The notes under the pieces: generated by a model
Databases searched by the model: none
Told to the model about the DNA's origin: nothing
Seen by the model: only the letters and a program-made list of their open reading frames with translations
Shown: piece by piece, positions 2 through 28,172 of the stretch
How the letters are laid out: every line of letters begins with the position of its first letter
Position numbering within the stretch: the first letter of the stretch is position 1
Program-made: the position numbers and the translations under genes
Assembly: GCA_024235715.1 (NCBI GenBank)
Contig: JACKLW010000013.1
Span: forward strand, 62,001-126,000
Direction: 5' to 3'
Source: Accumulibacter sp.
Lineage (GTDB): Bacteria; Pseudomonadota; Gammaproteobacteria; Burkholderiales; Rhodocyclaceae
DNA: 64,000 nt

Positions 2-1900
2 TTGCCGGTGCTGGCCCTGGGTACCGTGCCGGTGAGCGGCACCCTGTCCGCCAGCGGCGAGGTGGACCGCTACCGCTTCAGTCTCGCCGGCAGCACGCGT
101 GCCTATTTCGATTCGCTGACCAACAACGGCAACCTGCGCTGGAGCCTGACCGGGCCGCGCGGCGCGGTCGTTTCCGGACGCAGCTTCACCGCTTCGGATG
201 GCTATCAGGGCCTGTCGCTGATGGACCTGACCGCCGGCGATTACGTGCTCTCGGTCTTCGGCAGCACGGGCGCTTACAGCTTCAGGCTGATGGACATGGA
301 TCAGGGCGACGTGCTGACGCCGGATACCGATACCAGTGGCACGCTCAGCCCAGGCAACGAGACCGACATCTACCGCTTCGACGCCGTCGCCGGCGACCGC
401 TTCTACTTCGACCGCGTCAGCTTCAGCGGCGGCTACTACACCGACTGGCGCCTGATCGATCCCTTCGGCCGCCCGCTGTGGGGGCCGACGCACATGTATT
501 ACGACGACGTGGACCTCACGACACTGCCGTACTCGGGGACCTGGTACCTGCTGCTCGAGGGGCGCTATCACGAGACCACGGCGTCGAACTACACGATCAA
601 CGCGCGCAAGATCGACAGCGGCGCCAGCACGCCGATCGTCATTGGCGACCGCGTCGACGCCGATCTGGGCAAGCCGGGCGAGGTCGGCAGCTTCAGTTTC
701 GATATCGCTGGCAGCGAATCGAAACGCATCTACTTCGACGTACTGAGCAACACCAACCGCCTGAGCTGGACGCTGAGCGGGCCGCGCGGCAGTGTCGTTT
801 CCGGGCGCTCCTTCGGCAGCAGCGACGCCGCCAACGGGCGCTCGATCATGGACCTGGCGCCGGGCAGCTACACGCTGATCATCGACGGCAGCGGCGATTT
901 TAGCGGCGCCTACGCCTTCCGCCTGCTCGACCTGTCTGCGGGCACCCAGATCGTCCCGGGCACGCCCCTGGTCGACCAGAAGCTGACGCCGGGCAGGGCC
1001 ACCGAGGTGTACTGGTTCGACGCGGTCACCGGCGAGCGCTTCTACTTCGACCGGGTGGACTTCAGCGGCGGCTACTACACCGACTGGCAGTTGCTCGATC
1101 CCACGGGGCGCACGCTGTGGGGCCCGACGCACATGTACTACGACGATGTCGACGTCACGACCTTGCCGCTCGACGGGCGCTACACCCTGCTCGTCGAAGG
1201 CCGTTACCACGAGGATGCGCCGAGTTCGACCTACACGATCAACGTCCAGCCGGTGGTCGACCCGGTGTCGCCGATGAGCCTGAACACGCAGGTCTCGGGC
1301 ACGATCGACAGCGTCGGGCAGCGCGCTCTGCACACGTTCACGCTCGCCGATGCCAGGCAGGTCTATGTCGACGTCCTGACCAACAATAGCAACTTTTCCT
1401 GGAGCCTCAGCGGTCCGCGTGGCGTCGAGGTGTCGAACCGCTCGTTCGGCGCCACCGATGGCGTGCACGGCCTGTCGTTGCTGGATCTGGTGCCCGGTGA
1501 TTACACGCTGACCATCGATGGCAGCGGCGCGACCACCGGTGCCTACGCCCTGCGCCTGCTCGACCTCGCCGCGGCGCCGCTGATCACGCCGGGTACGCCG
1601 GTCAGCGGCCAGCTCAACCCGGCCAACGCGACCGACATCTACCGCTTCAATGCGGCTGCCGGAGACCGCTTCTACTTTGACCGCGTGAGCTTCAGCGGCG
1701 CCTACTACACCGAGTGGCGGCTGCTCGACCCCTGGGGCAAGACGGTCTGGGGACCGACACACTTCTACTACGACGACGTGGACGTCACGACGCTGGACTT
1801 CGACGGTGTCTACACGCTGCTCGTCGAGGGTCGCTACCACGAAAGCGGCACCTCGAACTACACGCTCAACGTCTCGCCGTCGCCGATCTCGCAAAAGATC
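2..1900 (+). repeat. Three tandem PPC-like double repeats inside the giant gene
   Basis: Three units of about 210-213 codons each contain two PPC-like beta-sandwich halves. The strongly conserved tract beginning FYFDRVSFSGGYYT starts at nt 401, 1040 and 1670, giving periods of 639 and 630 nt. Each unit also carries a WGPTHMYYDDVD-like stretch followed by an LLxEGRYHE stretch. PPC (pre-peptidase C-terminal) domains are known from secreted bacterial proteases and adhesins. The array may extend beyond the left edge. Confidence 0.8.
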
Positions 1901-4900
1901 ATCCTGTCCGGACTCGGCACGGCTCCCGGTCCCGACCTCAAGGTTGAGGACCTGGCGCTGACGCCGCCTGCGGGCGGTCTCGCCGCCGGCGGTCAGGTGC
2001 TGCTCAGCTGGGAAGTGAGCAATACCGGCAACCTGCCGGCCAATGCGCCGTGGAAGGATCGCATCCTGGTGCGCAACATGGACCGTGGCGGCGAGTTGAT
2101 CGTCAATCTGCTCGTCGATTACGCCGATCTGGGCGCCGCCGCCGGCGACCCGCTGGCGGCTGGCGGCCGTCGCGCCCGACAGGTGACGCTCAGCCTGCCG
2201 CCCGGCAACAGCGGCACCGGCAACCTGCGTTTCGAGGTCGCCGCCGACGTTACCAACGCCGTTGCCGAGCCTGGCGTTGCCGAGTTGAACAACAGCGCCA
2301 TCGTCAACGCGATCGCCGCGGCAACGCCGTATCCCGACCTGCAGGTCGACCACCTTGCGCTGACTCCGGGCAGCGGCTGGGCGGCGGGCAGCAGCGTCAC
2401 CGTGAGCTGGCGGGTGAACAACGGCGGCAGCATCGACGTGGACGATGCCTGGAGCGACCGCATCAGCGTGCGCAACCTGAGCACCGGCGCGACGCTGCTC
2501 AACGCCAGCCAACGCTACCTGCCGGCCGTCGACGGAGTGCTCAACGCCGGCAGCTCGGTCGACCGCAGCTTCAGCTTCAGCTGGCCGGCGGGTATCGCCG
2601 GCAGCGGCCAGTTCGAAGTCCTGGTGAGCACCGACGACGATGGCGAGATCTTCGAGAGCAATGCCAGCGACACCGCCGAGACCAACAACTCCGCCAGTCT
2701 GGTCGTCGCCTCGGCGCCCGACCTGCGGGTGCAGAACCTGCGCGTCGGCGCCGCCGCGGTCGCCGCCGGCGACAGTGTCACCGTCTTCTGGGACGACCGC
2801 AACGAGGGTCTGATCGCCACCCCGGCCAGCTGGAACGACCGCCTGATCGTGCGCAACCTGGACAGCAGCGAAACGCTGCTCGACGTCAGCCTGCCGTACA
2901 ACATCGCGCAGGTCGGCAATGGCGCGCTGGCTGCCAACAGCGGTGTCACGCGCTCCTACACTTTCCAGCTCCCCGAGGGTGTGCGCGGCAGCGGCCGGAT
3001 CGAGGTCGAGGTCCGTGCGGACCAGAATGCCGCCGGCCAGGGCAGCCTGGTCGAATACACCGCCGCCGGCGGCAGTGGCGAGGGCAACAACAGCGCCAGC
3101 ATGGCGTTCACCGCCGCGGCCAGGCCCTACGCGGACCTGATGGTCGGCAGTTTGAGCGCACCGGCCAGCGGGCGCGGAGGTGAGACGATCACGCTGGGAT
3201 GGACGGTGCTCAACCAGGGAGCGATCGCCACCGGCGGGCAGTGGAGCGACCGCGTCGTGCTCAGCAGCGACGCCGTGATCGGCAATGCCGACGACGTGAC
3301 GCTGGCGACTGTCGGGCATTACGGCGTGCTCACGCCGGGAGACTCGTACCAGCAAAGCCGGCAGTTGGTCCTGCCCGAGCGGCTCGACGGGGTCTTCCAC
3401 CTGGCTGTCGTTGCCGACATCGTCGGCGAGGTCAGCGAGCCCGACACGCGCGACAACAACACGGCGACGGCGAATATCCAGCTATCGACGCCGCACGCCG
3501 ACCTGCAGGTCGAGGTCGTCGCCGCGCCGGCCAGCGCGCGCAGCGGCGAAGCGACGCCGGTCAGCTGGCGGGTGCGCAATGCCGGCGACCGGCCGACCGA
3601 CGTGACGCAGTGGAAGGACAGCATCTACCTGTCGACCGACGCCACGCTCGATGCCGGCGACACGCTGCTGGCGCAGCTGCTGCACAGCGGCGGACTTGGC
3701 GTCGGCGAAAGCTACAGCAGCCAGAGCAACGTCTTCCTGCCCTTCGGCATGACCGGAGACTTCCGCATCCTGGTCGACACCGATGCCCAGAGCCAGGTCT
3801 TCGAAAGCGTGTTCGAGAACAACAACGTCACCGCCAGCCTTGCGCCGGTGCAGGTGCTGGCGCCAGTGCTCGCCGATCTTAGTGTCAGCCAGATCGTCGT
3901 GCCGGCGCAGGGCGCTCCCGGCCAGACGAGAAGCGTTGCGTGGACGGTCGCCAACAGCGGCAGCGGCGCTGCGCGCGGCAGCTGGAGCGACCGCGTCTAC
4001 CTCAGCGCCGACGGCAGTCTCAGCGGGGCGCAGTTGCTGGCGACCGTGCCGCACAGCGGCGAACTGGCGACCCTGGCCAGCTACACGGCGAGCGCCGAAA
4101 TCGTCCTGCCGGATGTCGTCGACGGCGATTACCTGATCGTCGTCAGCAGCGACGTCACCGACACCGTTTTCGAAGGCAGCCAGGAGGGCAACAACAGCAC
4201 CGTCTCGACGGCGACCCTGCGCGTGGTACATCCCGATCTGTTGCCGGTGTCGGTCGCCGCGCCGGCCGGCGCGCTTTCCAGCGAGGCCATCGTCGTCTCG
4301 TGGCAGATGCGCAATGCCGGCAGCAGCGACGCGCTCGACGCCTGGACCGATCGCGTCTACCTGTCGCGCGACGCGGCGCTCGGCAGCGACGACACGCTGC
4401 TCGGTGAACTTGCCCATGCCGGACCGCTCGCCGTCGGCGCCAGCTACGACGCGCAACTGCAGGTGAATCTGCCGCTGGCGGCCAGCGGCGACTACTTCGT
4501 GCTGGTGGTCGGCGACGCGCTCGGGCAGGTGCGCGAGGTCGGTGCCGAGAACAACAACGTCGGCTCGACGCCATTCACCGCTGCGCTGGCGCCCTATGCC
4601 AACCTGGTCGTCAGCGCCGTGAGCGCCGAAGCCAGCATCCCCTATGCGCCGGCGCCCGAGGTGGTCGTCGGCGATCCGGCACAGATCACCGTCAGCTGGA
4701 CGGTCGGCAACGACGGCAACGGCGTCGGCCAGACGGCGCAATGGACCGACACCCTGCTGGTATCGACCGATACCATCGTCGGCAACGGCGACGACCGCAT
4801 CATTGCCAGCTACGACCACGTCGGCGCGCTGGCGGCCGGCGACAGCTACTCGCGTACCGAGACCTTCCTGCTGCCCGCGTACTTCCAGGGGCGCTACCAC

Positions 4901-7900
4901 TTCTTCGTGCGCAGCGACGCCGGCGACCAGGTCTTCGAGAACGGCCTCGAGGCCGACAATGCCGCCGAGGCGGCGCGCATCTTCGACGTGATGCGCATGC
5001 CCAACGCCGATCTGGTGGTCAGCCAGGCGAGCGTGCCCGCCACCGCCCGTTCGGGGCGCGCCATCGACGTTTCGTGGCAGGTCAGCAACGTCGGCATCGG
5101 TCCGACCGACATCCCGGGCTGGAACGACGAGCTGGTTCTCACTTCCGATGCGGCCGGCACGCAGCTGGTCGCCGTGCTCGGCACTTTCACGCACCTCGGC
5201 GTGCTCGCAGCCGGCGACAGCTACAGCCGCACGCAGGAAGTGACCATCCCCAACGGACTCTCGGGCAACCATTACGTGCGCGTGCGCACTTCCGGCCCCT
5301 TCGAGTTCGTCTACACGGGCAACAACAGCCGTGTCGCCGGGCCGCTCGATGTCGTCCTGTCCGACTCTCCGGATCTGCAGGTGACCGACATCGTCACGCC
5401 GGCGACGGCGTCCGAGGGCGACACCATCGACGTGCGCTGGACGGTCACCAACAACGGCCTGGCCAAGGCCGAAGGCGCCTGGACCGACGTCGTCTCGATG
5501 CGCAAGGTCGGGCAGCCCGACGATCCGGGGATCTTCCTCGGTACTTTCACCTACGACGCAGGTGGCCTCGAGGCCGGCATCTCCTACACGCGTACCGAGC
5601 GCTTCCGTCTGCCGCCGCGCACCGAGGGCGTCTATCAGCTGGTCGTGCTGACCAACTCCGGCCGGCAGGTGTACGAGTACGGCAGCGCCGCCGCCAACAA
5701 CAGCGCCGCCGACGACCAGGCGCTGCAGGTCGCCCTGCTGCCGCGTTCCGATCTGCAGGTGGCCAACGTCGTCGCGCCGGCGCGCGCCTCGGCCGGTGCG
5801 ACGGTATCGCTGCGCTTCTCGATCATCAACCAGGGCAGCGTCCCGACGACCACGCCGCGCTGGCAGGACCGCGTCTACCTGTCGCTGGACAACAGGCTGA
5901 CCGGCGACGACCTGTTGATCGGCGCCTATGACAACGGCGCAGCGCTCAATCCCGGCGAGCAGTACGCCACCGACAGCGGCAGCATTCAGATCCCGATCCG
6001 CTTCCGCGGCGACGTTTTCCTGATCGTCCAGGCCGACGGCAGCGGCTCGGTCGACGAGTATCCGAACGATGCCAACAACATCGCCGCCGTGCCGCTCTTC
6101 GTCGAACCCTACCCGCTTGCCGACCTGGTCGCCGGCGGCGTTGTGGCACCGGCGCAGGCGGTCGAAGGCGCCAGCATCGAGGTCCGCTACACGGTCGCCA
6201 ACCGCGGCAGCGGCACCACCGCCGGAGCGAACTGGACCGACACCATCTGGCTGTCGCGCGACAAGACGCGGCCCAATGCCAGCGGCAACAGCGCGATCCT
6301 GCTCGGCACGCTGCAGCATCAGGGCACGCTGGCGGTCGGCAGCAGCTACGACGTTGTTACCCAGGTCGCGCTTCCGGCGCATGTCGCCTCGGGCACCTAT
6401 TACATCACCGTCTGGAGCGATTCCTACGACGTCATCCTAGAGGATACGCTGGCCAGCAACCTCAACCCGGACGACGTCAACGAACTCGACAACAACAACT
6501 ACAAGGCGCGCGCGATCGACGTCATCGGCGGCTTCGCGCCGCCGCCGCCCGACTTGCGGATCACCGCGCTCGCAGCTTCGCCGCTGGCCTCCACCGGCAG
6601 CCCGCTGAGTGTCACCTGGACGGTGGCCAACGCCGGCGCCGGCGAAGCCTCGGGCAGCTGGAACGACGTCTTCTGGCTGTCCGACAAGCCGACCCTAGAC
6701 GCTCCCAATGCCAAACGGTGGTACCTCGGCTCGGTGGCGCACGACGGCGGCGCTGCGCCCGGCGCCAGCTATACCCAGAGCACCAGTTTTGCACTGAACC
6801 CGGCGGCAGCCGGCCAGTACTTGATCGCCTATACCGACTACAACCCCGTCAAGCCAAAACCGTACGACGTCGCCGAAGGCGACGAGGACAACAACACCCG
6901 CGTGCAGGACACCCGCGTCGTGCCGGTGCCGGCCGACCTGCGGGTGGTGACCATCGCCGCGCCGAGCGTGAATTACTCGGGCGAGAAGACTACCATCAGC
7001 TGGACGGTCAAGAACTTCGGCGGCGCGGTCTGGGACGGCACCCGTTTCTGGGTGGACAGCGTCTATTTTTCACCGGATCCGGTCTTCCTGCCCGAGCGGG
7101 CGACCAGCCTGGGCACCTTCGTGCACAGCAACGCTGCCGGACTGGCAGCCGGCGCGAGCTATACCGAAAGTGCCGAGGTGACGCTGCCGCGCGGCATCGG
7201 TGGCAACTTCTACATCTACGTGATCACTGATGCCAATCGCTACGACCCGCGCTACCCGGCCGGCGAGACCGACAGCGGCGACAACCCGTACGATCGGGAC
7301 GTCTACTATCCCGGCTCGGTCTACGAGGGCGTCGGCGGGCAGGACAACAACCGCGGCGTCGGCAGCATTCCGGTCACCTATCGCGAACCTGACCTGAAAA
7401 TCACCTCGCTCGTGGTGCCGGCTGCCGGCGGGAAGTCCGGGAGCACGGTCACCGTCAACTACACGGTGACCAATATCGGCAACCGCGATACCCGCGAGAG
7501 CAGCTGGTGGGACCGCCTGTTCCTGTCCAGGGACGATTCGCTCGATACCTTCGACCTGCAGGTCGCCGAGGCGCGGCATTACGGTGTGCTGAGCGCCGGC
7601 GGCAGCTATGCCGGAACGGCGACCGTCAAGCTGCCCGACGGCATCGCCGGCGCCTTCAGCCTGCTGGCGTTCACCGATTCCGAGGCCGACAGCCGTCTGG
7701 CGTGGTGGAACAGCAACATCGTTCCCGAGTATCGCGGCGTCGGCATCAACGCCAACAGCGACGAGGTGCCGGAATTCCGCGGCGAGGGCAACAACATCAC
7801 CGTCGCCGCGCTGCCGGTGGCGGCGGCGCCACTCGCCGACCTGCAGGTCACGGTGGTGAGCGCAGCGAACCACATCACCGTCGGCAACGACTTCACCGTC

Positions 7901-22900: not shown

Positions 22901-25900
22901 GCTACGCTGCACATCGACCTGAAAGCGAGGTTCGGCGACGATTTCGTGAAGACATACGCCGACGCCGACCTGCCGATCGAGAAGACGGCCCTGTATTTCA
23001 CGATCACGCTGAGCAACGGCAGCATTCGCGACGAATTGGTCGACCTCTTCTACCTGCCGGACTTCGCCGACGGCGATGCCTCCGACGGCGTGTGGACGAT
23101 GATGGACACGCTGGACGGCAAGACGCGCACGCTGACCTTCGACAATGCCGCGCAGGTCGACGTCAAGCCCCTGTCCAACCCGACCGGGCAATTCTCGGTG
23201 GACGAGAGCGGCGGCATCGCGCAGGGGATCAAGTACCAGTCGGTGTACACCAGCGCGATCGACGATTTCGCCGAATTCCAGATCGAGGAGGGTGGCCGCA
23301 ACCTGGGCAAGATCACCGTCAAGGCGCGCGCGGTCGAGAAACAGACGGTCGGCGTTTCGCTGGCCACGCTGCGCACGATGGTGCAGGCGATTCGTACCGA
23401 ATACGACCAGTGGGTGGCCGATCCGACGGCCCCGGTGCACGACCCGAACGGATTCGCCACCGGCAACTATGGCACCTTCGCCAGCCTCTTCTCGCCAGTG
23501 ATCACCGACGCCGAATGGGCTGACGTGCTGACCGGCTTCCACAACGTATTCGGCAAGGACCCCAACGCTCTGGGGCCGGTGTACCCGGCTTCGATCTATC
23601 TGCCGAGTATCCAGCAGAACGAGTTCGCGTACGCCGAAACCGGCCTCAATCCGATCGTCATGATCAACCGGCCGTGGCTCAACGTCACCGACAACGAGTC
23701 GCGCAGCTTCGCCGGGCTGGACTTCGCCTACACCAGCTTCGAGAACAATCTTACCGAGGCCGGTGCGGGCGCAGGCAGCTTCGGCGGCAAGGTCCTGCGC
23801 GACGACATTTCGATTCCGGCCAAGCGCTTCCTGCTGTCTCAGGTGGTCAATCCGCTGCGTACCGGCGCGATGGCCGGCGGCAGCGCGATGACCCTGGTCG
23901 TCGATGGCATCCTGCGCGCCTACCTGAATGTCGGCGACACGCGGCAGGACGTCGGTGAAGCCTTCGGCTGGGTCGTCGGTCATGAACTTGCGCACAACCT
24001 CGGGCTGTTCGACGAGTACATCTACAATCCCTTCCAGTCGGTGCCACGCAACGGCGGCGCCAACTTCATGTCCACCGCCAATACGGTGACGGTCGCCAAC
24101 CGGCAGCGGGAAGCGCTGCACCTGGCGATGGACAATCCCGATACCACGGTCTCGCTGGCGGGTACCAATGCCCTGGCGACCTGGTACCTGGACCTGAACG
24201 CGCTCGACGCGTCGAACCGTCCGGGCCGTACTGCGCAGGCACTGTCTCCCAGAGCCGGCGACGGCGACCCCGAGGCCGACCCGCTCACCGCGCTGCTGGC
24301 CTTCGTGGGCATGGTCGGCGACGCGACGGCCGGGGTGACTTCGGAACCGCTGCTGCGCAACGGCGAGATCCACGCCGGCATCGTCAATGGCGCCTTCGAC
24401 GTCGGCGACGCGACGGCCACCGACTACGGCTGGATCACTGTTGGCCATGCCGGCGTGGTCAGCGGTCAGGGCGTTCTCCGCGAGGATCCGCGCCTGGCTT
24501 CGCGCCTGATACAGACCTTCGCCGTTCCCGATCAGGCACAGATCCTGCGCTTCGAACTGCTCGGCGCCGATTTCGTTGCCAACGAGGGCGGGCCAGCGGA
24601 TGCCTTCGAGGTCGCACTGCTCGATGCCTCCGGCAATGCCGTCGCGGGCACCATCCCGGTCGGCGACAGCGACGCGCTGTTCAACCTGCAGGCCGGTGGC
24701 AGGGTATTCGCCGCGTCGTCGGTGAGCGCGACGGGGCTGGCCAACCGCAATGGCGGGACGCTGCCGGCCGGGCAGCCGGTGACGGTCAGCATCGATCTGA
24801 GCGGCATCGCCTCCGGCAGCGTGCTGACGCTGTACTTCGACCTGCTCGGATTTTCCGGCGCGGCGAGTCGGCTGCGCATCGACAACGTCAGCATCGTCAG
24901 CGCCGGCGACAGCAACAACCTGCCGCCAGTCGCCAGCAGCAGCGCGATCAGCGCCAGCGAAGAGGGCCCGGCGGTGGCGCTCGCTCTGAGCGCGCCGATC
25001 GACGTCGATAGCCCGCTGCTGTCGATCGTCGTCAGCGGTCTGCCGGCCATCGGCGAGATCCGGTACGCGAACGGCAATGCGGTTGGCGTCAACGACACGC
25101 TCAGCAGTTCGCAACTGCTCGCCCTGACGTACATGCCGCCGGCCGAATACAACGCTCGCGACCCGGTCGGGCGCTTCAGCTACAGCGTCAGTGACGGCAT
25201 CAGCACGGTTACCGGCGAGACGGTGATCGTGCTGGCAGCGGTCAACGACGCGCCGGTCGCCAGCAGCAGTGCGATCATCGCCAGCGAACAGGGTGCAGCG
25301 GTGGCGCTCGGCTTGAGCGCGCCCAGCGACGTAGACAGCGTGGTGCTGAGTATCGTCGTCACGGGTCTGCCGGCGCTTGGCGAGGTGCAGTATGCGGACG
25401 GCAGTGCGGTCAAGGACGCCGACACGCTGAGCAGCGCGCAACTGGTCGGCCTGAAATACCTGGCGCCGGCCGAGTACAACGGCCGCGATGCGGTCGGCCG
25501 CTTCAGCTACAGCGTCAGCGACGGCAGCAGGGCGGTCAGCGGCGCGACGGCGATCACCGTGCTACCGGTCAACGACCCACCGGTCGCGGCCAGTAGCGCG
25601 ATCATGGCCGATGAAGGTGGTGGCGCCGTGGCGCTTGGTTTGAGTGCGCCGACCGACGTCGACAGCCCGCTGCTGACGATCGTCGTCAGTGGGCTGCCGC
25701 TGCTGGGCGTCGTTCAGTATGCTGACGGCAGCAGGGTAGGCATCAACGACACATTGAGCGAGGCGCAGCTACTTGGGCTGAAGTACCTGCCACCGGCAGC
25801 ATATGACAGCAATGATGCAGTCGGCAGTTTTTCCTACCGCGTCAGCGATGGCAGCCGCTCGGTAGCCGGCGGGACGACGATCACCGTCATTCCGGGCAAC

Positions 25901-27886
25901 TACGCGCCGGTCGCCAGCAGCAGCGCGATCACCGCCAGCGAAGAAGGTCCGACAGTGGCGCTCGGTCTGAGCGCGCCGGTCGACGTCGATAGTCCGCTGC
26001 TGACGATCGCCGTCACCGCTCTGCCGACCATCGGCGAGGTGCAGTACGCCGACGGCAGCGCGCTCGCTGCCAACGATCTCTTGAGCAGCGCCCAGTTGGT
26101 CGGCCTGAAGTATCAGCCGCCGGCCGAGTACAACGGCACCGACAGCGTGGGTCGTTTCAGCTACAGCGTCAGCGATGGCCAGCACACGACGGGCGGCGAG
26201 ACGACGATTGCCGTGACGGCGGTGAATGATGCACCGGTGGCGGTTGCCGACAGCGCCAGCGTCGATGTCGCCGATTCGCTGCTGATCGACGTCCTGGCCA
26301 ACGACACCGACGCAGAGAATCAGGCCCTGACTCTGATCAGTTCCAGCGGCGCGACGCGTGGCAGCGTGGCGATCGAGAACGGCAAGCTGCGCTACACGCC
26401 GCTGGGTACCAGCGTCGGTGCCGACCGGTTCAGCTACCTGGTGGCCGACAGCGACGGCGCCACGGCCAGCGGGCAGGTCGAGGTGCTGGTTACCGCCAAC
26501 CGCGCACCGACGCTGGCCGCGATTGCGGACGTCAGTATCCGCGAAGGCGAAAAGCTGACGATTGCCGCAGTCGGCAGCGACGCCGATTCGGGCGACGTCC
26601 TGAGCTACTCGCTGCTGGTCGCGCCGGCAGGGGCGAGTATCGACGCGGGTAACGGGAACATCGTCTGGCAGGCACGCGACGGTGGCGGCAGCCACGCTTT
26701 CAGCGTTCGCGTGGTCGACCGTGCCGGCGAATTCGCCGATCGCAGGTTTACTGCGACCGTGCTCAACGTCGCACCGACGCTGAGCGTCTCTGGCCCGTCG
26801 TCGATCCACGTCGGCGAGCCCTACTCGCTCGCACTGGGCAGTAGCGACCCCGGTGACGACACCATCAGCAACTGGCGGATCGACTGGGGCGATGGACAGG
26901 TGATCGATTACGCCGGTAACCCGAGTCGACTCGAACACCGCTATGGCGTCAGCCTTGGGCCGGTCGCGATCCGGGCGACGGCCAGCGACGAGGACGGCAG
27001 TTACCTCGCAACCCCGTTGCCGCTGACGGTGCTGCAACGGCCGTCGCCGGTGAGCGCGCCGGGCGTCGGCGACGATGCACGGCAGGCGGTCGGCGAACTT
27101 GTCGGCACCAGGGGCGGTGGTACTTTCGACGCCGCCGACACGATGCCGATCGGGCAAGGTGCCTTGTGGTGGGTTGGCGGTTTCACGACGTCGGCGGTCG
27201 CCGCCTCGCACGTGCTCGCCAGTACTGACGGCAGTGGCCGGATCGCGGTCGGTGATACGGTGGGGAGCGAGCAGCAGTCAGGTGCCGGCCGACTGCCGGG
27301 CGCCCTGAACGACGTGGCCGGTTTTCAGCCGACGCTTGTTGGCGGGCAGGCACGGTCGGCGCCCGACGATGCCGGCGGCGCGCTGCCGCTGGTCGACTTT
27401 CGCCCGCGGCCCGCCGGTTTGCGCTTGCCGGTGGGCCATGGGCGTGGCGAACACGACAACTGGCGAAAGGCGTTCGTGACGAACATGGCGAAGAAGGCGG
27501 ACGACCCGAATAGTGCCCTGCGGGTGAGCACCGGAGCATCGCGAGCGGTCCCTCTCGCACCGGATGATTTTCTCGACGAGCTGCTGCCGGACGGCACACA
27601 GGACGCTTTGCCGGGTCGCACCCAGCCGGGCGCGCCGAATGCCCAGCCAGCGGGAGCGCCGAGCAGCGTGGACGAGAACGCCGAACAGGACATCAAGGAG
27701 GGCGCGCAGGAGGGCGGCGCCGGGGACAGGGACGACCCTGCCCTGGATCGTTTGATGCTCGTGCTGCCGCTTGCCCCGTTCGGGCCAATCTACTTCAAGA
27801 GCGTTGTCGGGCGAGGGGGGTGGCGAACAGATATCGCAAAGCGCCAACGCCGGCGGCCGGCGGCGGGGGAAAGCGCATGCGGGTGA
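2..27886 (+). CDS. Giant modular secreted/adhesin-like protein, 5' partial
   Basis: One frame stays open for 9294 codons from the left edge to a TGA at 27884-27886, so the true start lies outside the window. Visible modules by approximate residue are: PPC-like tandem repeats 1-625; 17 CARDB-type repeats 640-2870; PPC/IPT-like 2870-3070; propeller-like 3830-4075; Big_5-like 4080-4190; nine He_PIG-like repeats 4300-5165; RHS-like 5365-5610; dockerin-like 5741-5790; Big_2-like 5890-5980; YVTN-like propeller 6435-6780; GHSRG hydrolase-like segment around 7114; zinc-protease motif at 7994; four 109-residue repeats 8309-8744; then Ig and PKD-like domains. Such mosaics are typical of very large exported adhesins or surface enzymes. 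No LPXTG, PEP-CTERM or RTX nonapeptide tail is seen, and no secretion genes lie nearby. Export and function are inferred; the open frame is seen directly. Confidence 0.9.
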   Translation: MPVLALGTVPVSGTLSASGEVDRYRFSLAGSTRAYFDSLTNNGNLRWSLTGPRGAVVSGRSFTASDGYQGLSLMDLTAGDYVLSVFGSTGAYSFRLMDMDQGDVLTPDTDTSGTLSPGNETDIYRFDAVAGDRFYFDRVSFSGGYYTDWRLIDPFGRPLWGPTHMYYDDVDLTTLPYSGTWYLLLEGRYHETTASNYTINARKIDSGASTPIVIGDRVDADLGKPGEVGSFSFDIAGSESKRIYFDVLSNTNRLSWTLSGPRGSVVSGRSFGSSDAANGRSIMDLAPGSYTLIIDGSGDFSGAYAFRLLDLSAGTQIVPGTPLVDQKLTPGRATEVYWFDAVTGERFYFDRVDFSGGYYTDWQLLDPTGRTLWGPTHMYYDDVDVTTLPLDGRYTLLVEGRYHEDAPSSTYTINVQPVVDPVSPMSLNTQVSGTIDSVGQRALHTFTLADARQVYVDVLTNNSNFSWSLSGPRGVEVSNRSFGATDGVHGLSLLDLVPGDYTLTIDGSGATTGAYALRLLDLAAAPLITPGTPVSGQLNPANATDIYRFNAAAGDRFYFDRVSFSGAYYTEWRLLDPWGKTVWGPTHFYYDDVDVTTLDFDGVYTLLVEGRYHESGTSNYTLNVSPSPISQKIILSGLGTAPGPDLKVEDLALTPPAGGLAAGGQVLLSWEVSNTGNLPANAPWKDRILVRNMDRGGELIVNLLVDYADLGAAAGDPLAAGGRRARQVTLSLPPGNSGTGNLRFEVAADVTNAVAEPGVAELNNSAIVNAIAAATPYPDLQVDHLALTPGSGWAAGSSVTVSWRVNNGGSIDVDDAWSDRISVRNLSTGATLLNASQRYLPAVDGVLNAGSSVDRSFSFSWPAGIAGSGQFEVLVSTDDDGEIFESNASDTAETNNSASLVVASAPDLRVQNLRVGAAAVAAGDSVTVFWDDRNEGLIATPASWNDRLIVRNLDSSETLLDVSLPYNIAQVGNGALAANSGVTRSYTFQLPEGVRGSGRIEVEVRADQNAAGQGSLVEYTAAGGSGEGNNSASMAFTAAARPYADLMVGSLSAPASGRGGETITLGWTVLNQGAIATGGQWSDRVVLSSDAVIGNADDVTLATVGHYGVLTPGDSYQQSRQLVLPERLDGVFHLAVVADIVGEVSEPDTRDNNTATANIQLSTPHADLQVEVVAAPASARSGEATPVSWRVRNAGDRPTDVTQWKDSIYLSTDATLDAGDTLLAQLLHSGGLGVGESYSSQSNVFLPFGMTGDFRILVDTDAQSQVFESVFENNNVTASLAPVQVLAPVLADLSVSQIVVPAQGAPGQTRSVAWTVANSGSGAARGSWSDRVYLSADGSLSGAQLLATVPHSGELATLASYTASAEIVLPDVVDGDYLIVVSSDVTDTVFEGSQEGNNSTVSTATLRVVHPDLLPVSVAAPAGALSSEAIVVSWQMRNAGSSDALDAWTDRVYLSRDAALGSDDTLLGELAHAGPLAVGASYDAQLQVNLPLAASGDYFVLVVGDALGQVREVGAENNNVGSTPFTAALAPYANLVVSAVSAEASIPYAPAPEVVVGDPAQITVSWTVGNDGNGVGQTAQWTDTLLVSTDTIVGNGDDRIIASYDHVGALAAGDSYSRTETFLLPAYFQGRYHFFVRSDAGDQVFENGLEADNAAEAARIFDVMRMPNADLVVSQASVPATARSGRAIDVSWQVSNVGIGPTDIPGWNDELVLTSDAAGTQLVAVLGTFTHLGVLAAGDSYSRTQEVTIPNGLSGNHYVRVRTSGPFEFVYTGNNSRVAGPLDVVLSDSPDLQVTDIVTPATASEGDTIDVRWTVTNNGLAKAEGAWTDVVSMRKVGQPDDPGIFLGTFTYDAGGLEAGISYTRTERFRLPPRTEGVYQLVVLTNSGRQVYEYGSAAANNSAADDQALQVALLPRSDLQVANVVAPARASAGATVSLRFSIINQGSVPTTTPRWQDRVYLSLDNRLTGDDLLIGAYDNGAALNPGEQYATDSGSIQIPIRFRGDVFLIVQADGSGSVDEYPNDANNIAAVPLFVEPYPLADLVAGGVVAPAQAVEGASIEVRYTVANRGSGTTAGANWTDTIWLSRDKTRPNASGNSAILLGTLQHQGTLAVGSSYDVVTQVALPAHVASGTYYITVWSDSYDVILEDTLASNLNPDDVNELDNNNYKARAIDVIGGFAPPPPDLRITALAASPLASTGSPLSVTWTVANAGAGEASGSWNDVFWLSDKPTLDAPNAKRWYLGSVAHDGGAAPGASYTQSTSFALNPAAAGQYLIAYTDYNPVKPKPYDVAEGDEDNNTRVQDTRVVPVPADLRVVTIAAPSVNYSGEKTTISWTVKNFGGAVWDGTRFWVDSVYFSPDPVFLPERATSLGTFVHSNAAGLAAGASYTESAEVTLPRGIGGNFYIYVITDANRYDPRYPAGETDSGDNPYDRDVYYPGSVYEGVGGQDNNRGVGSIPVTYREPDLKITSLVVPAAGGKSGSTVTVNYTVTNIGNRDTRESSWWDRLFLSRDDSLDTFDLQVAEARHYGVLSAGGSYAGTATVKLPDGIAGAFSLLAFTDSEADSRLAWWNSNIVPEYRGVGINANSDEVPEFRGEGNNITVAALPVAAAPLADLQVTVVSAANHITVGNDFTVTWTVGNLGGADTLPDQARWDDLIYLSRDPLLDLDSDRYMLAVEHRGGLAQGASYTVSKTLRAPLDISGAYYVFVVTDPARGSGRGKVFEGGFERNNATPNAPPSIFELPPPADVQVDAIAFSGVGASGDTIHVEWTVANHSSNATSGGWTDAVYLSDDNVWDINDRLLGKVAHSGVLDQNDSYTASVDALVPPVKVGQYRLIVRPDIYNEVFEGPYRSAGEANNFSTSANALSIAVEELHLGVALSTTLSTGQNRVYKLTVGQGETLRLSLTAADHDAANEIFIRYGDVPDGFNYDATYENPLQANQTAVIPFTKPGDYYVLIRGHSEPKANAQVKLLAELVPFAITSVQVDQGGDSRWVTIDVRGAKFADNAILKLVRPDIAEFEPVKWDVIDATWIRATFDFRNAPLGLYDLKVINPDGQQAVVAYRFLIERALETDVTIGLGGPRVLAAGETGTYGVALQSLTNVDTPYVRFTFGVPEMGANEYVYDLPFLRYYNNLRGQPDSGGEDVAWASLDSATNTSGQILSSGYAYDVIAGGYVGATFNVQTYPLLKALSTLNWEALRVGLYEMYPDLEPIQALAGGPQSMRTVLPEFWDLWLLAGSEEGLPDRCVIPFIPYRFNIVGAATAMTRDEFIADQTAEALKLRAAILADADLDAQIADTRSDETSLAEKRAAIALRVLAADATTWSQAYLAALEQVGILRPVDEAPPIRQDIKVMSLMSTLATGILIGPAGEQIRTTGDLADFFAKIREWYGDEPGTEAAIDHYEYRESECLSGEIPVPALPVFGDYDLALSHPTYFQTFNIFVPYVGFDKDGASAATIALPDYASVAASNELTALDFSRLYEQAIGDGQLASIAGPQGYGVDQFLPAGQALPYTIKFENPSAAATSVTEIRVVSELDLALDPTTFRLGDIKLADLTVHIPTGRALFQGDFDLRNSKGFILRVSAGIDPSTNTASWVFQAIDPDTGEVLLDATRGLLLPNAADGRGVGQLGYSVQARDGLASGTLVKAKAVVRFNAIAPQETRQLVQTLDSGAPVSTLSATPVQAGGSDYEVRWSAVDEDGGSGLAHVTVYVATDGGDFRIWKRQTTDVFDIYSGEAGHRYEFLALATDLAGNRERPPGGVQAPDDGSGANLGGLPSFGQTSQDLPPPPAPVLPPTNPLFVAAQQQIPAATPLASLPEFTETLRPFTAQSYATDFVESHAAIGPLAIVEMPDGSTIISGGPNRGWLYRIAHDGGRALQPFAELDEPVFDLALDAQGQLWATTGGGALLRLDATSGAIQARFGTSITQALAIKPSTGEIYVSSGDGVEIFDPTSSSFRHFSDLRVDDLAFAADETLWGTSWPARGDVVSFDKRGRATVKVRLDGEVDSLAFGRAGTRLAGLLFVSSNSTRGELGSALTMVDLSTLRSVEIARGGSRGEAVVATSDGRVLLGQSHQVDVISPIVAPQVIATNPPDMAVVLLPLSALTISFDQDMFAGPASDSASVLNPLNYQVVRQNGGLATVSGVSYDAPARTVTLAVSDLEADLYDLRVLGSVRSSAGMALGSAFISSFVAAQDFSSVVRLDFDRVRSDRGSGIVSYDVTVTNEADYDLLLPASLIIDPARYFQGRPLGGVAPQGAGSLWYIDLSGKLPNGKLQAGASLATFSVSITNGAEQQIGIGHGIYAVPYPNQRPSFTSTPPGVADAGQAYSYQAVARDPDGSSLAYLLLDGPSGLQLDSSSGLLSWLPTARSPASASVLLRAYDSRGGFDTQAFVIEVAGANRPPVVSELPSEIEGKEGESLLVGLSAQDPDEDFLQYFANNLPPGAVFDPVLKALVWTPDYQSAGTYNNVELVVSDGKTSVTRSFTLLVKPDNAPPEVKPLAERTIREGDPLRVQLQASDVDGQKLRFFANILPVGAYLDPNTGVFEWTSGFTQAGDYLLELGASDGAKTTETDLRVHVLNVNAAPRFDELGSWISFEGQTLSFRAFAFDPDNPGFIPQDRQSSGTLTVQEGSDASVSYVASGLPAGASFDPVTAMFSWTPDFGQAGDYSVRFTATDDGDGGLPLTSGIVVPISVRNANRAPEIAEILPQGVQRDSVFELAVSASDADGDPLTLTASGLPSFASFVDHGDGTGKFVFAPHSGDRGDYEIALTATDDGDGGGALLAQSFTRRFILSAQSASEAPLLAPLGDKLALVGQRLSFAIKASDLDQDSLSFAMRNAPAGMTITPQPTYGRALVEWTPTATSLGKSFDVRFEVTDNGNNGATGPNQASQVVRIKVRDSNTSPVLAPVGDLTLVEGQAFSMQLAAIDADGDALSYAVGNLPPGASFDTVNGVLSWTPNIFSAGDYPDVRFSVSDGSAESAESVRLTVQNSNQAPIVVPLLPQSGREGAQLQFQLSVGDADGDPVVFSALTPLPAGSRFDARTGEFRWTPSYEQAGDYSFSFSARDPQGASSQTTVSVAIANVNRAPQLSVSNHAALLGRPLSFRIVGQDADQNAQLSYSASGLPDGATLDSATGLLQWTPGAGQAGDYLIMAQVSDGLASTTLPLVIRASLTPPAASVIIENTPSFPVIPGQQVLVHVIAESFGAIAALRLYADGVEVALDQDGRALLTTTTTGKIALRAEATDVDGFVGSGTAAIRVRDPLDRSAPTPSFASQLAFARIAATTALVGSTGDDNVDAWTLEIARYGEEHYSLLASGNSAVDAAAFLQLDPTALANGFYTLRLRVVDLAGRRGEASIDVEIDSATKQPQLLRSETDFVLTVAGHDLPFARSYDSLARSIPGSFGEGWRLAFRDVDLQNDAALTGRETAGVLGTFADGQRVFVTLPDGQRTAFTFTPQKRSIPGQTWYLPAFVAADGSGWSLEAPATVLQRAGSSYFDLLTGKGYNPANAAGTDYLLVAPDGTRYSIGDGEVREIAFADGVRLLVSDSGIVASNGQRVQFSLNADGFIDRVVADDGRQFLYDYDALGRLLAVRDLEGARSLRYGYEEGALGRLAIRVDAAGGKRFDYGASAVVQQAITADLGSSLGYLATSFSGDLAAGEEDRLAFTLRDSELASTASGAVYLGLIVEGSGGLLPQIPVLQGLSPVASSVQGNRAFALYRLDRAGLKLIEVSAASAGSYQLSLFVAGDANRDGKADGRDAVLIAAAAGLRSGDAGYALPLDADANGVVDSLDLQLLMQNTGFTPNQAPVVVAGTVRTHEDLDVSAPVSSFVTDPEGDRSYFSIVGANHGTARLSGDGRSVIFAPETGFVGSADFTIRADDGFGQTIQTIAVTISNAALTRIDFVDRAWRLDLGEGQQIRLVGDFADQSGVALPASYVSLTSTNVASGTVVSGGRISAVGKGSGVLVAERGDLRAATSFTVGTPTETVAAYVFGMGIDVYPGAVALVENGGRRQIVASLAGQIDLTPASSGTRYFVGDDRVLSVSADGLITGKAAGNSTVTVINGGGEFVLSARVEAPVSGPAVLGSPGGIVKGADGSVVAVAAGALAGSTQVSIAALTPAALPLAMPESMPMAGAFRLDVGDGKLATPVQLAIPTSGLAAGTKVVFMRYAEIPTPEGKLLPVWLQEETGIVGDDGMARTSSPPYAGVAISGVYVAGVASDVNFGQVRGRTYATFPSGINDGGSSFATLSSLGGGAAIGAAFSLTSGFIMTALFGSRELQIISVPAQGLPQRTTLGVEIDPGKVSDYSIQVVNPYSPSTSPASEPFISEARLVFRPAGSGDVAPFVEIKGDRFTYDNPPAPASAKDGSVITDLFVIFVTPDGRTHEVHPDASSTPTEVIVRVPQSVAIGTAKVYVRRPQVLSNNGAWNQLVGKESNRVQLSYDARYVFGGLSGSQLLVIDSQTRELAARIPIGGTFPAPRSVAISADNTRAYAALRYGSSVAVVDTVALQQVDADADLANGVSNIELLPGARPFWIAAGKGGKKAYVSDEVAGRIYVLDIDPSSGSYNKLVRTLDVAPAPSGLRGMAINANGTRLFVAAPEKALFGGSGSGDGRVFVIDVDEGSATYGEVLEVLAAGGEPYGVSATNDASVMLYTNRLSDSKGVVIVKGDVGSYTQTAVAMNLGSFTDYFDVNNAIAVVLSKDGDYAFVSGFNVYIQDNPSHDPNYDPFHPAGGNVGIIRDPLGAAPMLVAATRPVPMSWPDNLVLSPDGDTLYAAYRGQRVVMGFDVQAMIDAVNNPAFAAQLDRKPIDDLDPSINVRSNFKIIEPGSRFKDPVFGVPPGEEASGPIGVGGQANGLVAQGGASLELLAPGALTSDLTPTFSWLVKGFENAKSRLYVSTYRGSDGLFPTDLGTPDLNADRIFSSDLLDASSVDAQGAAIFIKALAATLKLTAGQQYFWGVEVVSPAGTVVARDWRVVRTEAFRDASKPFSSVTLLTHGFQLSPTAPANVADSIAAFLEMGENIARAGGEGVAALYQKTTGRWLVFYNGATSVTGVDLETVLASPATAGRPVVLISDWYDESDFPTNGFSEAAADTFYSALARLNFNLGNDKLFKSPIHLIGHSRGTVVNSEIAQRFGIYSPTTRLSMTSLDVHDFNQPSLDIPVGEYIQLFGATASALGAPAIGTLAQLWGMLPTNTIIPTGNFLDPDVQRWSNIDFAEHYYQILASNTALPVGGGIVSTPNGRFVPNFDVSMNLNGRAGFTADDGLATLTALNDGSLRPGGPHSRVWRWYGATTDLSVTEFAKGGEPVFRRLADKDATEFQGVSIPWYNAQSYALGMGPWEGIGTGWAFSPQGGVPFAGTPSNTRIPVSFDNSETINPSGLPVPSVFNGDFEEGALNRSWLLQFSAGGLATNLSGDLPGWSFHGGGFQTTRTLFDGDRLITLANGTHAAMLDNDNSWIQHNRMVVPDWAEYLSFDVQVLDAAAGETLRVQGFVPDTASWIDLGSVAVDSQGNSFVNRQLEVPVEFRGAERMLRFSLSGGGSANAEILLDHVQFMRGLIVDSTTDQNDKGVFFTDTATGPTSGLSSQWVELTNRFPDAVTVTVTTDPNDFLVVVDGPFEKLLNDNQAHAPLYQDLVVSPGATLHIDLKARFGDDFVKTYADADLPIEKTALYFTITLSNGSIRDELVDLFYLPDFADGDASDGVWTMMDTLDGKTRTLTFDNAAQVDVKPLSNPTGQFSVDESGGIAQGIKYQSVYTSAIDDFAEFQIEEGGRNLGKITVKARAVEKQTVGVSLATLRTMVQAIRTEYDQWVADPTAPVHDPNGFATGNYGTFASLFSPVITDAEWADVLTGFHNVFGKDPNALGPVYPASIYLPSIQQNEFAYAETGLNPIVMINRPWLNVTDNESRSFAGLDFAYTSFENNLTEAGAGAGSFGGKVLRDDISIPAKRFLLSQVVNPLRTGAMAGGSAMTLVVDGILRAYLNVGDTRQDVGEAFGWVVGHELAHNLGLFDEYIYNPFQSVPRNGGANFMSTANTVTVANRQREALHLAMDNPDTTVSLAGTNALATWYLDLNALDASNRPGRTAQALSPRAGDGDPEADPLTALLAFVGMVGDATAGVTSEPLLRNGEIHAGIVNGAFDVGDATATDYGWITVGHAGVVSGQGVLREDPRLASRLIQTFAVPDQAQILRFELLGADFVANEGGPADAFEVALLDASGNAVAGTIPVGDSDALFNLQAGGRVFAASSVSATGLANRNGGTLPAGQPVTVSIDLSGIASGSVLTLYFDLLGFSGAASRLRIDNVSIVSAGDSNNLPPVASSSAISASEEGPAVALALSAPIDVDSPLLSIVVSGLPAIGEIRYANGNAVGVNDTLSSSQLLALTYMPPAEYNARDPVGRFSYSVSDGISTVTGETVIVLAAVNDAPVASSSAIIASEQGAAVALGLSAPSDVDSVVLSIVVTGLPALGEVQYADGSAVKDADTLSSAQLVGLKYLAPAEYNGRDAVGRFSYSVSDGSRAVSGATAITVLPVNDPPVAASSAIMADEGGGAVALGLSAPTDVDSPLLTIVVSGLPLLGVVQYADGSRVGINDTLSEAQLLGLKYLPPAAYDSNDAVGSFSYRVSDGSRSVAGGTTITVIPGNYAPVASSSAITASEEGPTVALGLSAPVDVDSPLLTIAVTALPTIGEVQYADGSALAANDLLSSAQLVGLKYQPPAEYNGTDSVGRFSYSVSDGQHTTGGETTIAVTAVNDAPVAVADSASVDVADSLLIDVLANDTDAENQALTLISSSGATRGSVAIENGKLRYTPLGTSVGADRFSYLVADSDGATASGQVEVLVTANRAPTLAAIADVSIREGEKLTIAAVGSDADSGDVLSYSLLVAPAGASIDAGNGNIVWQARDGGGSHAFSVRVVDRAGEFADRRFTATVLNVAPTLSVSGPSSIHVGEPYSLALGSSDPGDDTISNWRIDWGDGQVIDYAGNPSRLEHRYGVSLGPVAIRATASDEDGSYLATPLPLTVLQRPSPVSAPGVGDDARQAVGELVGTRGGGTFDAADTMPIGQGALWWVGGFTTSAVAASHVLASTDGSGRIAVGDTVGSEQQSGAGRLPGALNDVAGFQPTLVGGQARSAPDDAGGALPLVDFRPRPAGLRLPVGHGRGEHDNWRKAFVTNMAKKADDPNSALRVSTGASRAVPLAPDDFLDELLPDGTQDALPGRTQPGAPNAQPAGAPSSVDENAEQDIKEGAQEGGAGDRDDPALDRLMLVLPLAPFGPIYFKSVVGRGGWRTDIAKRQRRRPAAGESACG
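1929..8620 (+). repeat. Array of 17 CARDB-type adhesion repeats inside the giant gene
   Basis: By eye there are seventeen units. Each opens with a PDLxV-like strand, followed by a 'sWtVxNxG' strand, a 'W.D.vylS.d' strand and a closing 'D....V.E....NN' stretch, about 120-150 residues per unit. This is the CARDB (cell-adhesion-related, bacterial) pattern, an Ig-like fold common in large surface proteins. Units have diverged, so they look like an old array rather than recent duplications. A stalk or adhesive role is inferred. Confidence 0.82.
12905..15500 (+). repeat. Nine putative-Ig (He_PIG-like) repeats inside the giant gene
   Basis: Nine consecutive units start with an N-x-x-P-x motif (NQRPSF, NRPPVV, NAPPEV, NAAPRF, NRAPEI, SEAPLL, NTSPVL, NQAPIV, NRAPQL). 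Each carries the 'DxDGDxLxY...LPxGAxFDxxxGxxxWTP...AGxY...V.a.D' core typical of He_PIG/cadherin-like domains. Each is roughly 85-110 residues long. The acidic DxDGD loops would bind calcium in related folds, suggesting Ca-dependent stiffening, which is inference. Confidence 0.8.
16095..16850 (+). other. RHS/YD-like segment inside the giant gene
   Basis: Residues about 5365-5420 contain 'ETDFVLTVAGHDLPFARSYD' followed by an 'GSFGEGWRL' stretch, resembling the conserved entry to RHS/DUF6531 shells. A YDYDALGRLLAVRD YD-repeat with a following GxxxLxYGYEEG lies around residue 5575. Only about one to three YD units are visible, so this is a vestigial or minimal RHS segment rather than a full cage with a toxin. 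The family assignment comes from motif recognition alone. Confidence 0.6.
17222..17400 (+). other. Dockerin-like paired calcium-binding loops inside the giant gene
   Basis: Residues 5741-5750 read GDANRDGKAD followed by GRDAVLIAAA. A second loop around 5775-5783 reads DADANGVVD followed by SLDLQLLMQN. This is the duplicated DxNxDGxxDxxD plus helix pattern of type I dockerins. Dockerins classically bind cohesins in cellulosomes. In a non-cellulolytic proteobacterium it more likely mediates an intramolecular or Ca-dependent fold, which is inference. Confidence 0.7.
19310..20345 (+). other. YVTN-like beta-propeller segment inside the giant gene
   Basis: Residues about 6435-6780 contain repeated blades. 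Examples are 'LLVIDSQTRELAARIPIGG' then 'SVAISADNTRAYAA', 'AYVSDEVAGRIYVLDID', 'GMAINANGTRLFVAA' and 'LVLSPDGDTLYAAYRG'. The pattern 'P..v.i..dg..lyva....g.v.viD' is that of YVTN/NHL-type surface-layer propellers, which usually mediate protein-protein contact. At least five blades can be counted by eye. Confidence 0.7.
20950..21650 (+). other. Alpha/beta-hydrolase-like segment with GHSRG elbow inside the giant gene
   Basis: The stretch 'IHLIGHSRGTVVNSEIAQRF' places a G-x-S-x-G nucleophile elbow at residues 7114-7118, with Ser7116 as the predicted nucleophile. It is preceded by 'SVTLLTHGFQLSP' around residue 6985, which resembles an HG oxyanion strand. A following 'LDVHDFN' and a later 'FAEHYYQI' could provide the acid and histidine, but the catalytic triad cannot be proved by eye. 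Lipase or esterase activity is inferred. Confidence 0.6.
23900..24190 (+). other. Zinc metallopeptidase-like segment (HExxHxxGxxD) inside the giant gene
   Basis: The motif HELAHNLGLFDE starts at nt 23981. It places His7994, Glu7995 and His7998 as metal and catalytic residues, with Gly8001 and Asp8004 in the positions of a metzincin HExxHxxGxxH/D signature. A Met (NFMSTAN) follows about 24 residues later, reminiscent of a Met-turn. Aspartate in place of the third histidine is known in some small metzincins such as snapalysin. The module is embedded in a non-enzymatic repeat protein, and activity is inferred. Confidence 0.65.
24926..26233 (+). repeat. Four tandem 327-bp repeats (109 residues each) in the giant gene
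   Basis: Four units begin at nt 24926, 25253, 25580 and 25907 with PVASSSAI-like text (PVAASSAI in unit 3), at an exact period of 327 nt. Each contains 'S.EG..VALgLSAP.DVDSPLL.IvVsgLP..GeVQYADGS', then 'LSsaQLvgLKYlPPAEYN..D.VGrFSYsVSDG'. The pattern resembles cadherin-like/BIG domains of the type that end in 'FSYxVSDG'. Equal lengths without indels point to recent duplication or recombinational homogenisation. Confidence 0.85.
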
Positions 27887-28048
27887 AGACGATGCCGGTG
27901 ACGGGAACGAGAACCGCGCGCTGAATGGGGTCGTCGTCCAGTATGAGGTTGCGAAGCCATGCACGCCGCCGCTAGCGATGCTCCGGGCGTCGATCCGGTT
28001 GCCTGCCTCGTGCCAGGCATGGCTATGGCCGGTGGCCGACTTCAGGTC

Positions 28049-28054
28049 TATAGT
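28049..28054 (+). promoter_or_regulatory. Possible -10 box upstream of the XRE regulator
   Basis: TATAGT occurs about 120 nt before the regulator start, in a non-coding stretch of 286 nt. No convincing -35 partner is seen at normal spacing, so this is a weak candidate. Confidence 0.25.
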
Positions 28055-28172
28055 GTGCCGAAGAACATCCGGCCGCGCGTCGCCGTGTACTGATCACCAG
28101 ACGCCAACCGGCGGCGACTGGCGGGCGGCGCGGTGTCGTTTGCCGATCAGGCCGCTCTACAGAGGATTGTCG

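Follow-up and report, generated by a model that had tools for sequence, protein, structure and literature searches.

Giant proteins with an N-terminal LEPR motif, which are among the largest bacterial proteins, make up a named but poorly understood family (LEPR-XLL, NCBIfam NF012209). According to the available part of PMC8567305, a planctomycete motif has been presumed from 2004 onwards to direct export (Studholme et al., cited there); the form found in R. baltica, RRLxxExLExRxLLA, is presumed to be an export signal of a novel kind, motif-bearing planctomycete proteins reach 10,566 amino acids (aa), and a related motif occurs in 52 genes of T. immobilis, including those for eight of its ten longest proteins. 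The available part of PMC10868602 reports a LEPR-XLL protein of about 8,000 aa in Vibrio. In these parts of the two texts no export machine is named for the planctomycete signal (PF07595), whereas the operon described here is tied to the motif and tracks it across genera. The window (the whole stretch of 64,000 nucleotides that was analyzed, C13:62001-126000) comes from an Accumulibacter draft genome of 4.14 Mb in 25 contigs (90.5% complete) and begins inside a giant gene, g2. Its product has the features of the LEPR-8K giants (NF012209), namely an N-terminal LEPR motif in a giant, repeat-rich and probably surface-located protein. The operon upstream of g2 probably encodes a dedicated, SecA-powered apparatus for the export of such giants, in which a PqqD-like domain would read the leader and an M50 protease would cut it.

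Regarding other described systems, type I secretion (HlyB/HlyD/TolC; LapBCE) resembles this locus in its HlyD adaptors, in the presence of TolC at some loci, in cysteine-poor giants and in the RTX repeats of one further giant of the genome, g4; cysteine tends to be missing from type I substrates. The operon differs in having SecA and a PqqD-M50-HlyD protein in place of the ABC exporter, and the leader of the substrate is N-terminal. The accessory Sec system of Gram-positive bacteria (SecA2/SecY2) is similar in placing a second SecA beside a very large surface-protein gene, whereas here the SecA is shorter, HlyD/TolC parts are present and no second SecY was found in the 90.5% complete genome. 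Membership in SecA2 was rejected, with scores of 552, 460, 435 and 378 bits against cut-offs of 1085, 930, 725 and 1100 bits, respectively. The M50 proteases for maturation of ribosomally synthesized and post-translationally modified peptides (RiPPs; daptide HExxH, YydH/LiaK) share a PqqD-like domain and an M50 core with the operon protein, which is instead fused to a HlyD adaptor and encoded beside SecA and giants.

The giant genes and the operon are as follows.

Window 2..27886, plus strand: C-terminal part of giant g2, 9,294 codons; open frame with one stop, at its end
C13:13818-45515, same strand as g2 and operon: giant g1, 10,565 aa
C14:80696-119002, minus strand: giant g3, 12,768 aa
C7:155736-187796: giant g4, 10,686 aa
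C13:45452-53685, strand of g1 and g2: operon, between both giants and left of the window, made up of the genes below
C13:45452-45754: DUF3467 protein, 68 bits
C13:45893-47758: GAF-HlyD protein
C13:47774-49921: PqqD-M50-HlyD protein
C13:~49914-51923: truncated SecA paralogue, overlapping the end of the PqqD-M50-HlyD gene
C13:51928-52845: HlyD-type adaptor with a signal-peptide-like start, TIGR01730 126 bits, cut-off 94.9
C13:52855-53685: small protein D with hydrophobic stretches

The original prediction, made from the window, proposed a single intact gene of at least 27.9 kb encoding more than 9,294 residues, the frame being unbroken from the window edge to base 27886. It was borne out, and the gene is longer: when the full contig is considered, the frame extends from stop to stop over C13:53950-89886 (11,978 codons), and the ATG at C13:53998 is the likely start, 8,003 bases left of the first base of the window, giving 11,962 aa (C13:53998-89886). 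The leftward extension of the contig that had been suggested thus yielded both a start and a LEPR-XLL leader (C13:54172), and the suggested search for secretion genes upstream found the HlyD/SecA/PqqD-M50-HlyD operon directly upstream, outside the window. A run of 11,978 codons without a stop has a chance of about 10^-114 at the base composition of g2, whose third-position G+C content is 0.81-0.89 in all twelve bins of 3 kb. An ortholog in a related genome (G011:C3:25355-62146, 12,263 codons) is collinear with g2, has a Met at the equivalent start position and shows 84% aa identity across 11,798 aligned codons; as with g2, a PqqD-M50-HlyD gene (C3:19152-21296) is located upstream of it. Identities at codon positions 1, 2 and 3 were 0.898, 0.919 and 0.747, and since third positions are the most diverged in this alignment with a separate assembly, g2 is under purifying selection as coding sequence. 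It is a real gene, selected as a protein.

The LEPR-XLL model exceeded its 17-bit cut-off at the N-terminus of all four giants, with 17.5/22.2 bits for g2 (the weakest), 26/32.4 for g1, 29.9/33.9 for g3 and 33.1 for g4; the earlier statement that g2 matches no named family therefore does not hold. The related planctomycete model PF07595 gave 18.7 bits in g3 (cut-off 25.5) and was absent from the Pfam matches listed for g1 and g2. The leader of g2 is basic, with LEPRILLDAT at residue 59 of 11,962. Across 60 loci (those of 82 that fit the search pattern, which itself fixes L, E and R; many are from one genus) the consensus was [RK]-L-x-F-E-x-L-E-P-R-x-L-L-S-A-D, with E at -2 in 53, P at +2 in 46, S at +7 in 47 and D at +9 in 49. 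The 50 residues before LEPR had a median net charge of +6.5 (range -5 to 18). The 12-residue Kyte-Doolittle mean reached 2.0 in two of the 60 leaders and 1.6 in seven, while four operon adaptors with signal-peptide-like starts scored 1.59 (the one of this operon) to 2.72 on the same measure. LEPR leaders are thus basic and mostly lack a hydrophobic core.

The operon is linked to LEPR giants, as measured by strong PqqD-M50-HlyD hits (E <= 1e-140 in 101 relatives; at least 354 bits in 398 genomes drawn by phylum). Among the relatives, LEPR was found in all 25 with a strong hit versus three of the 76 others, and outside the own genus in 7/7 versus 1/66. Of the seven relatives with only a weak hit, one had LEPR. 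In the phylum draw the counts were 35/39 for strong hits versus 19/359 for the others (17/51 with a weaker hit, 2/308 with no hit), and both features shared a contig in 31 of the 54 LEPR genomes, at a distance of at most 50 kb in 30 of these. Related genomes are not independent, so that Fisher p-values overstate the association and are guides only. LEPR matches were also present in 14 of 16 named genomes with PqqD-M50-HlyD, the longest frame containing one having 15,167 codons.

Gene order was surveyed in the best 80 of at least 549 relatives obtained by a scan of genome contigs with the PqqD-M50-HlyD alignment, which included Pseudomonadota, Nitrospirota, Desulfobacterota, Myxococcota and others; as only the best 80 were kept, the counts favour close relatives, and each covers the loci whose contig reaches far enough. 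At the loci of named genomes GAF-HlyD preceded PqqD-M50-HlyD in 74/74 and SecA followed it in 68/69. A further HlyD adaptor was found in 49/65 and SapC in 8/63 loci, counts which, like those of DUF3467 and TolC given below, are likely too low because few query sequences were used. SecA also followed PqqD-M50-HlyD in 23 of 24 loci of the strong-hit relatives (n=25, one lying at a contig edge, L037). A same-strand frame of at least 1,000 codons ended within 3 kb upstream of GAF-HlyD in 29/51 loci and started downstream of SecA in 4/50; long frames on the opposite strand numbered 16/51 upstream and 5/50 downstream, and the 16 are read as mainly shadows of giant frames in GC-rich DNA. SapC-family genes upstream of the operon were seen at L114:7244-8080 (PF07277), L102:6962-7780 and L107:7217-8017. 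Thioclava pacifica DSM 10166 and Marinobacterium mangrovicola DSM 27697 are among the named strains that bear the operon. No NCBIfam match was obtained for protein D, a DUF3467 protein or a SapC protein. No paper on the operon was found among the literature matches listed, most subscription journals and preprints being outside their coverage.

The operon also occurs on plasmids. PqqD-M50-HlyD was found at E 1e-60 on 13 plasmids, with a SecA paralogue at most about 1.3 kb away on at least 12 of them (40 of the 124 matches being listed, Thalassospira marina not among them). The plasmid matches listed included no planctomycete record. Methylosinus sp. C49 has a closed plasmid on which a giant of 8,847 aa (leader KIIFDTLEPRVLLNAD), DUF3467, GAF-HlyD, PqqD-M50-HlyD, SecA, HlyD and TolC stand in a row. 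A closed plasmid of Pseudosulfitobacter DSM 107133 encodes a giant of 12,737 aa with the variant motif FEPRVLLSAD, accompanied by DUF3467, adaptor, PqqD protein and SecA. In Methylosinus C49 (L283:22222-24138) the annotation calls the SecA paralogue a prepilin peptidase, and on some other plasmids a DEAD/DEAH helicase or hypothetical protein.

The Accumulibacter genome encodes two SecA proteins, one of them full-length, and one SecY. The paralogue can be aligned with solved SecA chains (7xha and 3dl8, the latter being B. subtilis SecA) over residues 19-605, where it ends. It reached none of the cut-offs of the canonical SecA models (577.5, 577 and 567 bits against 862, 814 and 800). All 12 paralogue loci compared ended within three residues of where their alignment to the own paralogue ends, whereas canonical SecA ran on for another 199-254 residues in 18/18, and in a tree built from 22 paralogues plus 18 canonical SecA proteins the two sets were separated at 100/100. 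An extra SecA beside PqqD-M50-HlyD was present in 11 of the 13 strong-hit genomes checked and in none of the five checked with a weaker-class hit. In view of these counts, the paralogue is a marker of one common subtype, with PqqD-M50-HlyD as the more general partner of LEPR; an operon subtype without its own SecA may exist. In six genomes (G154, G182, G290, G319, G429 and G479) a weaker-class PqqD-M50-HlyD lies 0.3 to 17.5 kb from LEPR matches; G154, G182 and G319 were checked and are without a second SecA.

In the PqqD-M50-HlyD protein H210-E211-H214, N306-P307 and D312 (HExxH and NP....D) are invariant in 12 sequences and would fit an active M50 protease. Its best NCBIfam matches were RiPP-maturation proteases (E 6.8e-46 and 1.1e-7, both under cut-off); the daptide intramembrane metalloprotease model NF041824 gave 157.1 bits against a cut-off of 300, covering the PqqD-like domain and M50 core (residues 18-405). 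PqqD-type domains bind leader peptides. The AlphaFold model (mean predicted local distance difference test score, pLDDT, 77.6; predicted template modelling score, pTM, 0.51) starts with a small alpha/beta part at the N-terminus, continues as a long helical stretch and then has beta strands with a helical hairpin. In Foldseek the HlyD part matched the MexA and MacA adaptors (E 5e-11) with TM-scores of about 0.2 when normalized to the length of the query and about 0.5 when normalized to that of the target, the low query-length value being expected as the match covers one part of the chain; this part of the model thus resembles TolC-partner adaptors. The nearest named relatives among the best 80 of at least 549 were those of Candidatus Accumulibacter meliphilus (91%), appositus (90%) and regalis (89%). 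Distant relatives of the M50 part (about 30% identity across 42% of the query), mostly annotated as HlyD family adaptors, were seen on enterobacterial plasmids (Escherichia, Citrobacter) among the matches listed.

In the proposed dedicated export, the basic leader, ending in F-E-x-LEPR-x-LL-S/D-A, would be bound by the PqqD-like domain of PqqD-M50-HlyD. The truncated SecA paralogue would feed the unfolded chain across the inner membrane, either through SecYEG or through a channel that PqqD-M50-HlyD helps to form. The M50 active site would remove the leader, the HlyD-type parts and a TolC-type channel would carry the chain outside, and the C-terminal tail present in some giants may serve late sorting or retention. 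Whether these parts (truncated SecA, RiPP-style leader-reading protease-adaptor, adaptors and TolC, in several phyla and sometimes as a plasmid cassette, serving LEPR giants whose length can reach 10,000 residues and beyond) amount to a separate type of Gram-negative secretion system is a question on which we see the chances as even. If the proposal is right, there is a new route that moves proteins of about 1 MDa or larger across two membranes; it would also point to the exporter of planctomycete surface proteins with the related motif, and hint at what may contribute to the cohesion of flocs and granules in phosphorus-removing sludge.

Several observations weigh against this proposal. Export, its direction, leader binding, cleavage and the role of the tail are all predictions from sequence. 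As its alignment ends at residue 605, the paralogue may not push a chain through SecYEG in the way of ordinary SecA. Nor is it universal, G283 and G427 (strong hits) and four LEPR genomes of the weaker PqqD-M50-HlyD class each having a single SecA; it was missing after PqqD-M50-HlyD at L151, and after the gene considered in G018 (L038), where a LEPR frame follows at about 1 kb. LEPR occurs without a strong PqqD-M50-HlyD hit in G012, G019 and G091 (the last being the LEPR genome with a weak hit), while four of the 39 strong-hit genomes of the phylum draw and two of the 16 named genomes, a Nitrospira and a Rokubacteria, are without LEPR. DUF3467 was found in 29/69 and TolC in 4/51 testable loci; no TolC was called in the own operon, though it is present beside the operon in some relatives. 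Giants g3 and g4 lie on contigs other than that of the operon, and the tail was not found in g3 and is limited to 12 of 101 genomes.

One alternative is that ordinary SecA-SecYEG takes the giants across the inner membrane, LEPR being an odd Sec signal and the operon acting later, e.g. in holding, processing or release at the surface. The genome has one SecY and a full-length SecA, four LEPR genomes of the weaker class and two genomes of the strong class have one SecA, G018 lacks one after the gene considered, and the available part of PMC8567305 speaks of the planctomycete motif as a supposed export signal peptide. We nevertheless regard this route as unlikely, because the leaders mostly lack a hydrophobic core and a purely late role leaves unexplained the second SecA beside PqqD-M50-HlyD in 68 of 69 loci. 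Ordinary type I export of the giants (ABC exporter, HlyD, TolC), with the operon unrelated, would suit the RTX repeats of g4 and the HlyD and TolC components, which are type I parts, but it appears very unlikely. No ABC transporter gene was called in the operon, and the LssB-type exporter, the sole ABC family compared, exceeded its cut-off in 9/28 LEPR versus 21/73 other genomes (p 0.81) and in the own genome reached at best 359 of 693 bits. On these counts and this score the type I system was rejected as exporter of the LEPR giants.

An operon that processes some other substrate, such as a RiPP-like peptide or a signalling protein, and merely shares variable islands with the giants would agree with the nearest named M50-PqqD families, which by their names mature small peptides, and with the presence of the operon on plasmids. 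It is highly improbable, however, given that, of the 52 genomes with both LEPR and a PqqD-M50-HlyD hit, 21 have the two only on separate contigs (many being fragmented drafts) and that clustering of neighbouring frames of at least 100 codons (groups in at least eight loci; shorter frames fall outside its scope) showed no peptide-like gene. That the g2 frame itself is an artefact of collapsed or joined repeats is hardly conceivable. The genome is a 25-contig draft, and piecewise self-comparison of the g2 protein gave 245 off-diagonal matches, but these repeats are diverged: g2 has no exact DNA repeat of 30 bases or more and its best pair of at least 50 bases is 84% identical, which makes repeat collapse unlikely. 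The repeat analysis and the collinear, selected ortholog in another assembly led to rejection of a misassembly, and a giant of 12,737 codons stands on a closed plasmid record.

Together, the four giants (10.6-12.8 k aa) occupy about 138 kb, or 3.3% of the genome. A core of about 6,000 residues is common to g1, g2 and g3 (34-41% identity), whereas the interior of g4 is unlike the others, with RTX repeats, legume-lectin and LamG domains; in blastp (E 1e-5) the matches of g4 were limited to g1 near the N-terminus and to both g1 and g2 at the C-terminal end. The C-terminal tail is present in g1, g2 and g4 and in giants beside the operon in other genera. At E <= 6.1e-4 all 12 genomes with the tail were among the 25 that have a strong PqqD-M50-HlyD hit; since the tails of the own genome and of L092 are rows of the tail model, they match by construction, and G005, G007 and G060 (E 0.0043-0.0056) were set aside as chance. 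As the ends of the giants are kept while the middle changes, leader and tail are suggested to be sorting signals. The C-terminal part of g1 carries a subtilase domain (PF00082, 53 bits), and DUF4347 was seen near the N-terminus of both g4 and g1. Beginning 7 bases downstream of g3 is an L,D-transpeptidase frame (YkuD, PF03734; C14:79873-80688, minus strand), the product of which could act in cell-wall anchoring. In another genome of the same phylum a LEPR match lies inside an open frame of 19,427 codons (G161:C115:112865).

From its N-terminus the g2 protein, which contains four cysteines, consists of the basic leader, PPC (bacterial pre-peptidase C-terminal) and LamG domains left of the window, a CARDB array, PPC-like and Big_5-like pieces each just under cut-off, a He_PIG/Big_9/cadherin-like immunoglobulin (Ig) array (window 12398-15397; PF17963 E 3.7e-40 for the piece), weak RHS and dockerin-like pieces, a beta-propeller, hydrolase- and metallopeptidase-like motifs, a second Ig array and the conserved tail. 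The features within the window, all on the plus strand, are listed below.

2333..7684: CARDB (Ig-like) array, Pfam PF07705, down to E 1.8e-52 per 1000-aa piece
8660..8875: PPC-like piece, PF04151 22.9 bits, cut-off 25.9
14696..14950: best of 8 He_PIG stretches, PF05345 E 1.8e-78 for the piece
16097..16777: weak RHS-like stretch, one RHS/YD repeat, PF05593 23.6 bits (cut-off 22); DUF6531 PF20148 22.8 bits (cut-off 24.1); TIGR01643 22.2 bits
17219..17377: dockerin-like piece, PF00404 20.9 bits, cut-off 22.9 (43.1 bits in g1)
19493..20014: seven-bladed beta-propeller-like stretch, PF10282 27 bits; sequence match to 1l0q, a surface-layer protein, E 4.8e-11
21341..21355: GHSRG (GxSxG), possible alpha/beta hydrolase piece, by motif alone
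23981..24016: HELAHNLGLFDE (HExxHxxG), possible zinc metallopeptidase, by motif alone
25244..26998: second Ig array, Big_9/cadherin and PKD-like, PF17963 E 1.3e-46; PF18911 23.9 bits, cut-off 27
27392..27532: C-terminal tail motif W...F..........PN..L.V, by alignment and blastp; a row of the tail model

The mosaic described in the original prediction was upheld for its adhesive (CARDB, Ig/cadherin-like, LamG), RHS-like and dockerin-like parts, whereas the hydrolase- and protease-like parts appear only as motifs: in window 19-25 kb the beta-propeller was the sole family returned by Pfam and PDB-sequence searches. An RHS or polymorphic toxin was rejected for g2: beyond the weak RHS stretch at 16.1-16.8 kb lie another 11 kb of different domains, with Ig domains at the end, and no toxin family was among the Pfam and NCBIfam matches. 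The g2 product is plausibly a surface or extracellular, Ig-rich and cysteine-poor protein, and a role in biofilm, floc or sludge matrix is likewise plausible, a role which the Accumulibacter host only makes fitting. Following g2, the window holds a helix-turn-helix frame (27771-28937, the true start probably being later) and a DksA homologue (28941-29507).
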